In this document: positions 5,034-7,558 of the stretch, one piece after another
How the letters are laid out: every line of letters begins with the position of its first letter
How positions within the stretch are numbered: the stretch's first letter is position 1
Assembly (NCBI RefSeq): GCF_035961655.1
Contig: NZ_CP108393.1
Location: forward strand, 372,001 to 436,000
Source of the DNA: Streptomyces sp. NBC_01317
Lineage (GTDB): Bacteria; Actinomycetota; Actinomycetes; Streptomycetales; Streptomycetaceae
Direction of reading: 5' to 3'
Length of the DNA stretch: 64,000 bases
Made by a program: the position numbers and the translations under genes
Notes under the pieces: model-generated
The model's database searches: none
What the model was told of the DNA's origin: nothing
Seen by the model: only the letters and a program-made list of their open reading frames with translations

Positions 5034-5714
5034 TCACGGATGGAACCGCCACCGGCCTTCGGACACCACATCTACCTCGCCGTTCCGGACGCGGACGGCC
5101 GTCTCGTCGTCGATGAAGTAGATGGGGAAGTCCGCGCGCGCAGCGATGCGATCGGCCCAGGCGTCGTCCCGCTCGGGGAAGTCCGGCGAGTACAGGTGGG
5201 GCTTGAGGTACCAGTCGAAGAGGCCGAACGGCGGCTCCACGGTCGTCGCGCCGAGCACGTGGATGTCCGCGACGTCCCCGATGACGTCGGCGGAGTGCCC
5301 GGTGAGATTCCGGCTGAAGATCATCGATCCCGCGCTCAATCCCACGTAGACCCGGCTCTCCAGCGCCTCCAGGAAGCCGTCGACCAGGCCGTTGCCCGTG
5401 ATGCTGCGCGCGAGGTGGTAGTGATTGCCGCCGCCCACATAGATGACGTCGGCGCGGAACAGCCGGTCGAGCACCATCTGCTGGGGCAGGCCGTTCAGCT
5501 CCAGAACGTCGAACTCACGCCAGCCGAGCCCGAGGAGCCGATGCATGTCCGCGACGAGCCACCCGTGATCCCCGGGCTCGGCGACCGACGCCGTGGGAAC
5601 GTACACGAGGTTCGCCGACCCGAACGGCTTTCCCAGCATGTCCCGCAGCGCGTCCCGCAGTGTCTCGTTACGCAGACCACTCGCCGTCAACAGAAGCTCC
5701 ATCGGGCGAGCCAA
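5034..5714 (-). CDS. Peptidase S51-type (dipeptidase E-like) protein
   Basis: 226 residues, close to the usual 220-240 of the family. It belongs with the type 1 glutamine-amidotransferase-like fold used by PepE and cyanophycinase: the nucleophile elbow is GLSAGSM (Ser in G-x-S-A-G-S), preceded by the IYVGGGNHYHL loop that ends the central strand, and a C-terminal FIDDETAVRVRNGEV strand pair typical of S51 proteins. Known members cleave aspartyl dipeptides or cyanophycin-derived peptides; the substrate here cannot be fixed. ATG 5702 (MELLLTASG) is a good alternative start. It is the only intact gene left of the CRISPR array in the decayed island and is transcribed away from it. Confidence 0.75.
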   Translation of the reverse strand: MARPMELLLTASGLRNETLRDALRDMLGKPFGSANLVYVPTASVAEPGDHGWLVADMHRLLGLGWREFDVLELNGLPQQMVLDRLFRADVIYVGGGNHYHLARSITGNGLVDGFLEALESRVYVGLSAGSMIFSRNLTGHSADVIGDVADIHVLGATTVEPPFGLFDWYLKPHLYSPDFPERDDAWADRIAARADFPIYFIDDETAVRVRNGEVDVVSEGRWRFHP

Positions 5715-5839
5715 TCACGACGACCAAGCACGCGCAACGAACCCAGACTCTTCGCCACGATCATGCACGGCCGCATCAGGAGCGGCACCGTCCAGCTGGC
5801 CAACACCTGCGGGCGGGCTACGATCGGGTGAGTAGACGG

Positions 5840-5960
5840 AACGATCAAACACGCTTCACGACTACTCCAGACCAAAAGGGAACGAATGCACCTCTTGCCG
5901 GATCCGGTGAAGTTGCACGAGACCGGCAACCTCCTGCACTAACACCGCAGGTCAGGCAGT
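5840..5960 (+). promoter_or_regulatory. Putative CRISPR leader
   Basis: This stretch directly before the first repeat is visibly richer in A/T than its surroundings (for example around 5846-5885) and has no coding frame of its own. Repeat orientation and the degenerate last repeat both place the leader on this side. It ends in CGCAGGTCAGGCAGT just before repeat 1. A promoter here would transcribe the array rightwards. Confidence 0.4.
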
Positions 5961-6233
5961 CTGCTCCCCGCGCATGCGGGGATGGTCCCGCGACTCACGA
6001 CCCGCCGCTCGCTGCTGCTGGCTGCTCCCCGCGCATGCGGGGATGGTCCCGGCGCGCACACGGCGGCCGAACTGATGCCCGTCTGCTCCCCGCGCATGCG
6101 GGGATGGTCCCGCGTCGGACAGCTGGTCGCCGACGACCCAGATCTGCTCCCCGCGCATGCGGGGATGGTCCCCCGGTCGGGATTCCGGCCATCCCGGTCT
6201 TAACCTGCTCCCCGCGCATGCGGGGTGTCGACC
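5961..6233 (+). CRISPR. Orphan type I-E-like CRISPR array, 5 repeats and 4 spacers
   Basis: Five 29-bp repeats start at 5961, 6022, 6083, 6144 and 6205, separated by four 32-bp spacers (5990-6021, 6051-6082, 6112-6143, 6173-6204): an exact 61-bp period. The repeat core is CTCCCCGCGCATGCGGGGAT followed by GGTCCC; the GCGC/GCGG inner dyad forms the Cas6e-type hairpin and the pattern is that of subtype I-E. The first four repeats are identical; the last keeps its first 21 bases and then diverges (GTGTCG instead of ATGGTC), marking the leader-distal end. Repeat phase is uncertain by one base because three of the four spacers begin with G. No cas gene occurs anywhere in the window, so any activity would depend on Cas proteins encoded elsewhere. 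Confidence 0.93.
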
Positions 6234-6237
6234 GTGC

Positions 6238-6263
6238 GGGGTTCCGGCGGAGGTTGGAACCCC
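6238..6263. terminator. Hairpin between CRISPR array and secreted-protein gene
   Basis: GGGGTTCC (6238-6245) pairs perfectly with GGAACCCC (6256-6263) around a 10-base loop. It lies just after the last CRISPR repeat and 27 bases from the stop of the convergent secreted-protein gene, so it may terminate transcription from both sides. Confidence 0.5.
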
Positions 6264-6289
6264 GCGCCGTCAGCGGGGAGGAGACAGGA

Positions 6290-6580
6290 TCAGCAGGTGA
6301 CGACCTTGCCGTACGAGCCGCGGCCCCAGGTCCACTCCCACTGTTCGCCCGGCTGGTACGTGAGACACGGCGAGTCGGAACCCAGGTCGATGACGACCTT
6401 GAGGTGCATCGTCTCAGTGCACGAGTTGGTGACCTTCACGTACTTCCGGTGCTTGATGACGTCTCGCTTGACGCAGGCCGGCGCGGTTCCCCTGAGCTGG
6501 GCCTCCGAGGCGTGGGCGGCGGCGGGTGCGACGGTCAGGATGGTGGCGAATGCTGCGACCAGCAGCGTGAGTTTCTTCAT
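6290..6580 (-). CDS. Small secreted protein, alpha-amylase-inhibitor (tendamistat)-like
   Basis: From ATG 6580 (MKKLTLLVAAF) the product is 96 residues with a standard Sec signal peptide ending near AAAHA. The mature part has exactly four cysteines, with spacings of about 18, 18 and 24 residues, and central strands CTETMHLKVVIDLG and PCLTYQPGEQWEW followed by KVVTC. This layout resembles the two-disulphide beta sandwich of tendamistat-type alpha-amylase inhibitors (C-x-E-T-x-x-x-K-V-V). The inhibitory Trp-Arg-Tyr loop of true tendamistats is not evident, so it may be a secreted relative with another role. A longer frame to 6631 lacks a signal-like N-terminus and is less likely. Confidence 0.6.
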   Translation of the reverse strand: MKKLTLLVAAFATILTVAPAAAHASEAQLRGTAPACVKRDVIKHRKYVKVTNSCTETMHLKVVIDLGSDSPCLTYQPGEQWEWTWGRGSYGKVVTC

Positions 6581-6639
6581 GCCCGGACAACGACCGGCAA
6601 AATCGGAAGTCACCCTTCCGCTTTTGCCCATGAGGGCGT

Positions 6640-7250
6640 CGGCCTCGCACGGAGGATGTGGAACCCCGCCAAAGGTTGTTGCAGAAGGTTCGGTGAGGGC
6701 AGGGTGATGTGGTTTCTGGTGTGCCGCTTCAGCCGGTGAGGGTGGGTGAGGTTGTGCATGGTGGCGATGGCTTGGACGGCGTGGTGGAGGCCGTCTCTTT
6801 CCAGTTCTTCATGCGGGCGAAGGTGTGCTCGACGCGGGCTTTGACGCGTCGGTGCTCGGCGTTGTCCTCCTCCTGGGCACGCAGGAGAGGGCCGGACGTT
6901 CGTCGAGAACCAGTAGTTCCGGCCGGATGCTGCGACGGTGCGGTCGCGGACCGGGATCAGCGTGCCGTCCACGATCCACAACCGCTCCACATCGGCCACC
7001 GGCCGCGGTCCCGGATCATCCAGCGCGAGGAGCGGACCCAACCGCTGGATGATCCGGCACCCTGGCCGGGGAGATCCCGAAGAGCGGAGCCAACTGCCGC
7101 ATCGTGAGATTCGTCCGGTAGTACACCGCCGCCACCACCAGAAGCCGGTCCGGCAACGACAGACACCACGGCCCGACCCGTCGCCCCGCCCCCGCACCAC
7201 CCCCACCAACCCTTCGAACCGGCCCATCCCCCCCAACCCGTGAACGCCTC
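6640..7250 (-). pseudogene. IS5-family transposase remnant with internal deletion
   Basis: Minus-strand fragments in several frames read, in order, as an IS5-family DDE transposase: LPDRLLVVAAVYYRTNLTMR and LAPLFGIS (N-terminal helix-turn-helix), RIIQRLGPLLALDD, LWIVDGTLIPVRDRTV (first catalytic Asp), NYWFSTN, then directly DNAEHRRVKARVEHTFARMK (the catalytic Glu region) and GLHHAVQAIATMHNL. About 60-70 residues between NYxxSTN and the EHR segment are missing, which removes the second catalytic Asp, and there are at least three frame changes. It cannot be active. No clean terminal inverted repeats or target duplication were seen. Confidence 0.75.
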
Positions 7251-7558
7251 CACCCACAGTGCCTCAGCCCGGAACACCCCACCCCTACAAGAGGAATCCC
7301 CCATCCCAGACGTTGTGCGACAACCTTCCACGCAGGGCAGCAGCTCCAGGATCGTACGGCGGGAAAGTCCCGCGGCGGAGAAGCGCGGACTCGGCGACGT
7401 CACGACGCCGACGGACTCCTCGGTGAGGGACGACGCGATCGGCGCACGGCTGCCGGAAGGATCCTGACCAGCAGGATCGTTCCGGCAGCCGCCCGGCCGC
7501 GTGTCCCCGGGTGGACCCGCTCCCTGAGCGCGGGTCCGTCCGGGAACGGGCCGCCCGT
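7251..7558. other. Intergenic stretch with hairpins and a possible truncated Tat-signal start
   Basis: No intact gene. On the minus strand a GTG at 7403 opens a short frame reading TSPSPRFSAAGLSRRTILEL, which looks like the start of a twin-arginine signal peptide (S-R-R-x-I-L) but then runs into the transposase remnant; it may be the stub of a secreted-protein gene cut by the insertion. The rest is occupied by the terminator hairpins at 7448-7537. Confidence 0.35.
7448..7537 (-). terminator. Double hairpin ending the sugar-transport operon
   Basis: Arms 7448-7466 and 7472-7490 (starting GGCTGCCGGAA) match at 18 of 19 positions around a 5-base loop. A second hairpin pairs GGACCCGC (7513-7520) with GCGGGTCC (7530-7537). 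Both lie just beyond the stop of the last gene of the minus-strand operon (7559), so this is a strong factor-independent style terminator pair. Confidence 0.75.

Follow-up and report, generated by a model that had tools for sequence, protein, structure and literature searches.

A type I-E CRISPR mini-array in Streptomyces sp. NBC_01317 and its possible use by a divergent resident cas operon

Results

The chromosome of Streptomyces sp. NBC_01317 carries a short type I-E CRISPR array far from the only I-E cas genes found in the genome. In the reading that we favour, which we consider about evenly balanced between right and wrong, this is a genuine and structurally complete mini-array of a lineage common in the genus, which lacks its own cas operon in this genome and is read by the resident I-E operon instead. 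The array lies in a stretch of 64,000 nucleotides (hereafter, the window), which corresponds to positions 372001-436000 of the source genome, a single contig of 8,066,947 bases.

Anatomy of the array and its leader

The array is of type I-E: five 29-nt repeats with an exact 61-nt period and four 32-nt spacers occupy positions 5961-6233 of the window. A rescan reproduced the repeats and spacers reported in the initial annotation, as well as the full identity of repeats 1-4 (the five repeats start at 5961, 6022, 6083, 6144 and 6205). Chance does not account for four identical 29-mers at a fixed period, and a scan tolerating 8 mismatches finds only these five copies in the whole window. The features of the locus are as follows:

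5034-5714, minus strand: left neighbour, Peptidase_S51 gene (Pfam PF03575, E 5e-44)
5876-5960, plus strand: leader, its terminal core GCAGGTCANNNAGT abutting repeat 1 (gap-free alignment with 17 leaders)
5961-5989, plus strand: repeat 1, CTGCTCCCCGCGCATGCGGGGATGGTCCC
5990-6021, plus strand: spacer 1, 32 nt
6022-6050, plus strand: repeat 2, same as repeat 1
6051-6082, plus strand: spacer 2, 32 nt
6083-6111, plus strand: repeat 3, same as repeat 1
6112-6143, plus strand: spacer 3, 32 nt
6144-6172, plus strand: repeat 4, same as repeat 1
6173-6204, plus strand: spacer 4, 32 nt
6205-6233, plus strand: terminal repeat (5), nt 1-21 identical and nt 22-27 altered (comparison with repeats 1-4)
6230-6271, plus strand: strong inverted repeat after the array with a 15-bp stem, terminator-like without a T run (arms 6230-6245 and 6256-6271)
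6290-6631, minus strand: right neighbour, alpha-amylase inhibitor family gene (Pfam PF01356, E 4e-8)
6732-7399, minus strand: transposase remnant in two frames, pieces 6732-6956 and 7019-7399 (Pfam, pieces scanned apart)

The repeat folds into a hairpin with a CCCCGC/GCGGGG stem (-14.3 kcal/mol), the Cas6e-type stem of I-E arrays, and the terminal repeat retains this stem at -14.2 kcal/mol. Type I-E Cas6e cleaves after nt 21 of such repeats, as in E. coli; the last crRNA of the array would therefore keep its full 3' hairpin. The terminal repeat had been described as degenerate, which is accurate only for the 3' handle part, where nt 22-27 differ, while nt 1-21 are identical to the other copies. 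Terminal repeats elsewhere show the same tendency. In 35 arrays from the fetched loci, including the window array, changes affect 61 of 280 positions in nt 22-29 versus 44 of 735 in nt 1-21 (Fisher p 3e-12; 55/272 versus 44/714 without the window array), in a set that is partly made up of related arrays and includes at least two with a one-base shift inflating the handle count. Since changes concentrate in nt 22-29 in other arrays too, the last repeat is an ordinary feature, and we rejected it as a sign of decay: its hairpin half is whole, its changes are confined to nt 22-27 and the pattern is common across arrays.

The 85-nt leader aligns gap-free to 17 leaders of window-type arrays at cas-bearing loci, all ending in the shared core GCAGGTCANNNAG or a near variant, which places it in the same family as the leaders at those loci. 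It scores 49.3 on the leader profile, compared with 19.5-71.6 for the 17 cas-locus leaders (leave-one-out) and with a mean of -62.6 and a maximum of -19.2 for shuffled versions of the window leader (n=2000). On this profile the leader is intact, preserved as well as the leaders at cas-bearing loci. A scan for sigma-70 promoter and terminator consensus listed none at the array. The inverted repeat after the array folds strongly (z -6.2 over 81 nt, z -3.5 over 78 nt). As a general array feature, however, the downstream hairpin was rejected: 4 of 22 folded arrays reach z <= -3 (23 were tried, one being too short), and 2% of 60 random window stretches do so.

Occurrence in the genus

The leader-repeat junction of the window array (up to 2 mismatches) is present in 72 of 295 same-genus genomes including its own, a sample drawn from a larger group, and Cas6e matches occur in 121 of the 295. 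No Cas6e match was found in 21 of the 72 junction-bearing genomes by Pfam PF08798 at E 0.001, a count made partly on fragmented assemblies, with five of the 21 in a single contig (G013, G105, G129, G165, G170) and one (G195) carrying a partial Cas8e match. Among four of these 21 loci that were inspected, G029 has five repeats and G035 two, and no second repeat was found in G013 or G020, so that some Cas6e-less loci are single leftover units. By these counts, stand-alone I-E arrays are common in this genus, and the window array joins a known type. A Streptomyces survey (Zhang 2018, as cited in PMC12231136) gives arrays in 46 of 70 genomes and cas genes in 26 of 70.

Several arrays with diverged repeats stand side by side at three of the fetched loci (L016, L024, L067), which may reflect decay and renewal in place.

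The resident cas operon and the other arrays

The only Cas6e, Cse1 and Cas1 matches of the genome are at 1.809-1.815 Mb, all outside the window, in agreement with the initial annotation, which had seen no cas gene in the 64 kb. They belong to a complete-looking I-E operon 1.43 Mb from the window array, in which PADLOC identifies all eight genes (Cas3, Cas8e, Cas11e, Cas7e, Cas5e, Cas6e, Cas1e and Cas2e); the sole Cas6e is encoded at 1810094-1810894 on the minus strand. An array of ~154 repeats (1,818,835-1,828,208; L012 8836-18209) adjoins the operon. Between its repeat and the window repeat, 7-8 of 29 positions differ; the differences extend to the 5' flank and to two or three positions of the handle, and none falls within the 6-bp G+C stem. 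When folded by itself, the resident repeat favours a pairing that is not quite the same (-13.6 kcal/mol, z -0.6). The two leaders are alike in their last 18 nt only, with a profile total of -7.6 for the resident leader versus +49.3. The 29th base of the resident repeat varies (C 70, G 59, T 16 and A 5 among the 150 repeats that fit a strict pattern), which is what a free last PAM base would predict; AAN is the effective PAM in S. avermitilis as cited in PMC12231136.

Operons of what we call the standard lineage flank the window-type repeat and leader in other genomes. The resident proteins share about 32-36% identity with theirs for Cas6e and Cas8e, 31-37% for Cas3, 43-47% for Cas7e and 47-51% for Cas1. 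Judged by these identities, the resident operon belongs to another I-E lineage than the window array, whose own lineage would thus be without an operon in this genome. No decayed standard-lineage cas genes were found in the genome, a standard-lineage Cas3 query matching the resident cas3 alone (41%). Resident Cas8e has matches (E 1e-20) in 64 of 295 genomes including its own: 12 other genomes reach at least 57% identity, 12 loci fall at 48-52% and the remaining full-length matches at 35-41%. The array is therefore an orphan locally, with no cas genes nearby, but not in the strict sense, as one I-E operon of another lineage is present. For the suggested chromosomal I-E system acting in trans there is now a candidate operon; the different repeat and the other lineage nevertheless make the relation between array and operon weaker than first assumed.

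A search with the leader core and stem pattern returns five junctions genome-wide (the window, 574 kb, the resident array, 7.246 Mb and 7.696 Mb), and none with the reversed control. The initial annotation had proposed looking for other arrays with the window's repeat; four other leader-bearing arrays exist, but each of the five has its own repeat variant. The stem letters CCCCGC-NNNN-GCGGGG are common to all five save for a T-G wobble at 7.696 Mb, where the repeat forms five of six stem pairs in its best fold. Three of these arrays have no cas genes nearby besides that of the window: 573977-574768 (plus strand), ~7245.6 kb (minus strand) and 7696.0-7696.3 kb (minus strand) (L011, L139, L140). 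They share related repeats and a similar leader stretch, GCAAAGC, and seemingly constitute a third family without a cas operon in this genome.

Arrays beside relatives of the resident operon

Window-like repeats occur next to operons related to the resident one. The handles ATGGTCCG are found beside two such relatives (G135, G205). In the genome closest to the resident operon by Cas8e (G064, 71%), a CTGCT-type array with CTGCTCCCCGCACCCGCGGGGTTGGTCCC adjoins cas8e, and a second array with CTGCTCCCCGCACCCGCGGGGATGGTCCC and the handle ATGGTCCC lies ~12.6 kb from the operon; this genome has a single Cas6e match, and no cas1/cas2 was found in the 35 kb fetched. In G094, G187, G036, G023, G071 and G088, which also carry close relatives of the resident operon, the repeats or handles are unlike those of the window.

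In each of two further genomes, G031 and G154, there is one Cas6e match and one operon of the resident lineage, with no array and no cas1/cas2 within the 20 kb fetched, nor any cas1/cas2 in the fetched array loci. Matches to the leader-repeat pattern are scattered over their chromosomes, 23 in G031 and 17 in G154 with none in the control (L141-L147, L263, L272, L278-L294). Most of these are junctions of very small I-E arrays; by our reading, a recognisable leader is present in about 21 and 15 of them, respectively, and some have only one or two repeats. Approximately fifteen of the G031 arrays can be paired with a G154 array whose flanks are similar; a comparison of first spacers shows that these differ. 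Several of the scattered arrays, though located at different sites, have similar sequence upstream, at ~74-92% over 270-830 bases (L279, L280, L282, L284, L146), as if the arrays had been copied along with a neighbouring stretch. A tnsB/tnsC module beside the G031 operon, an idea taken from PMC12231136, was rejected, as none of the three ORFs checked matched a transposase family.

Because the stem is shared and the closest relative by Cas8e is flanked by window-like repeats, service of the window array in trans by the resident operon is plausible, if unproven. For trans processing alone we would put the chances at about even, and lower for the acquisition of spacers into the window array.

Alternatively, the array could be a stranded leftover, left unread and not yet decayed after its standard-lineage cas operon was lost, or was left behind when the array was carried in. 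We regard this as possible, though somewhat improbable. It would account for the presence of a single Cas6e, Cse1 and Cas1 locus in a genome whose window array has the repeat and leader that standard-lineage operons flank elsewhere; the junction-bearing genomes without a Cas6e match, some with relic-like loci (G013, G020), and the mere four spacers of the window array also agree with it. It sits less well with an undecayed leader and four undecayed repeats, with the lack of any cas remnant found in the genome and with the similar repeats adjoining relatives of the resident operon.

Genomic surroundings

The array was initially placed inside a decayed island. The transposase remnant at about 6732-7399 agrees with this: one piece matches HTH_Tnp_4 (E 2e-8), and the other DDE_Tnp_4 with an E of 0.002, below Pfam's cut-off; 'IS5-type' is our own reading of these domains. 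The rest of the surroundings does not. The array sits in a 575-bp gap between two intact-looking genes, for Peptidase_S51 and the alpha-amylase inhibitor, and Pfam matches among the further-out ORFs scanned are to metabolic, transport and regulatory genes. None of the 7 nearby ORFs matched a PHROGs family, and no phage or conjugative island marks were found among the ORFs scanned.

At least 23 of the other 294 genomes also have the Peptidase_S51 gene, at 81-91% identity. Seven relatives with this gene, compared over 15-19 kb, have nothing but that gene in common with the window, homology stopping at 5746-5790, and neither an empty site nor an element boundary was found in these seven. When the gap (5715-6290) was compared among 61 genomes including its own, matches elsewhere were almost all to the leader and array part, so the arrival of the array is not datable.

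A leader-bearing array also occurs in a phage. Saccharomonospora phage PIS 136 (L296, 12445-13445) has a four-repeat I-E-like array with the leader end CCAGGTCAGGAAGT; its last repeat is altered past nt 23 and followed by a strong hairpin, so that its anatomy is that of the window array. This matching anatomy, together with two plasmids described in PMC12231136, SCP1 with its four-spacer cas-less array and pSHK1 with five arrays spread along it, would suit a self-contained cassette of leader, array and hairpin, brought in by a plasmid or phage and dependent on whatever I-E machinery its host has, but we find this highly doubtful given that the Pfam-matched neighbours are ordinary chromosomal genes with no PHROGs match in the 7 nearby ORFs, that the transposase remnant is the sole mobile trace nearby, that no boundary was found in relatives sharing the left gene alone and that so few arrays have the downstream hairpin.

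In Streptomyces phage Eklok (33918-35200, L295), several diverged I-E-like hairpin repeats at irregular spacing were seen by eye in an intergenic region; phages related to Eklok were also matched by the array search, on the basis of the matches alone.

Spacers

The initial annotation had proposed matching the spacers to actinophage and plasmid sequences. Searches with the whole array and with each spacer against phages and plasmids, and with half-patterns against IMG/VR, returned no convincing protospacer for spacers 1-4. The IMG/VR search used two exact half-patterns per spacer with 16-17 fixed bases each, the free positions for the second half of spacer 1 being set one base off. Its best full-length agreement is 25/32, of which 16-17 bases were fixed by the pattern, and was taken as chance. 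We likewise did not accept as real the matches of spacer 1 to Paracoccus plasmids (26 nt at 96%, E 0.005) and to a Streptomyces sp. BHT-5-2 record (26 nt at 92%, E 0.06), of spacer 2 to Streptomyces phage Mischief19 (22 nt at 95%, E 0.3) or of spacer 4 to a Klebsiella phage (25 nt at 92%, E 0.08). No window spacer reaches 24/32 within eight sequences of its own genome, and none of 145 resident spacers matches the window within 6 mismatches. As 99.5% of 2104 spacers in this genus are unmatched according to a figure cited in PMC12231136, the missing protospacers are uninformative here.

Discussion

If the resident operon does read the window array, the leader would drive a short pre-crRNA. The resident Cas6e, despite its other lineage, would cleave this transcript behind nt 21 in every repeat, since window and resident repeats have the same 6-bp stem. 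The predicted crRNAs are ~61-nt long with the handle AUGGUCCC; once loaded, the four guides would be used by the resident Cascade and Cas3 for interference, and few or no new spacers would be added to the array. The initial annotation took the identity of the first four repeats to mean that the array is either recent or maintained; its conservation also fits recent arrival or recent loss of cas genes.

Several known systems resemble the window array in part. The I-E arrays of S. avermitilis (PMC4762764) likewise have a 29-nt repeat with a CCCCGCNNNNGCGGGG-type stem, 32-nt spacers and a leader before repeat 1, and the description given there has a single cas set serving two arrays with different repeats. 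Those arrays flank their cas genes, whereas the window array is separated from the only operon found, one of another lineage. The SCP1 array, as PMC12231136 presents it, is similarly short with no adjoining cas genes; SCP1 is a plasmid, however, whereas the window array is on a chromosome that also encodes a divergent I-E operon. Streptomyces strain QF2 (PMC8782336) likewise combines one I-E operon with many small predicted arrays located elsewhere. The part of that paper describing them reports 38 scattered predicted arrays and an operon without cas1/cas2, compared with five leader-bearing arrays, five repeats and an operon with cas1/cas2 in the genome studied here. The QF2 spacer-phage matches printed there are short (14-20 nt) with high E values (0.06 to 9.5), so we give them no weight. 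The orphan I-F arrays of E. coli with anti-cas spacers, in the account of PMC8616872, are a case of an array retained after cas loss, in a subtype other than that of the window array.

On a broader and unlikely proposal, the I-E arrays of the genus would be free-standing cassettes (a leader, a short array and sometimes a terminal hairpin) that plug into any I-E lineage of the host, with array and effector evolving and moving separately; the window array would then be a guest from another lineage that a divergent Cas6e and Cascade keep in working order.

The mismatch of lineage between the window array and the only cas operon found is a useful twist. With one operon and five leader-bearing arrays that have five repeats and a common stem, this genome offers a natural test of how much repeat divergence is tolerated by I-E Cas6e and Cascade. 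Reading of the window array by the resident Cas proteins would mean that arrays without cas genes can provide live immunity in this genus; should the array be unread, such arrays would be relics that inflate array counts.
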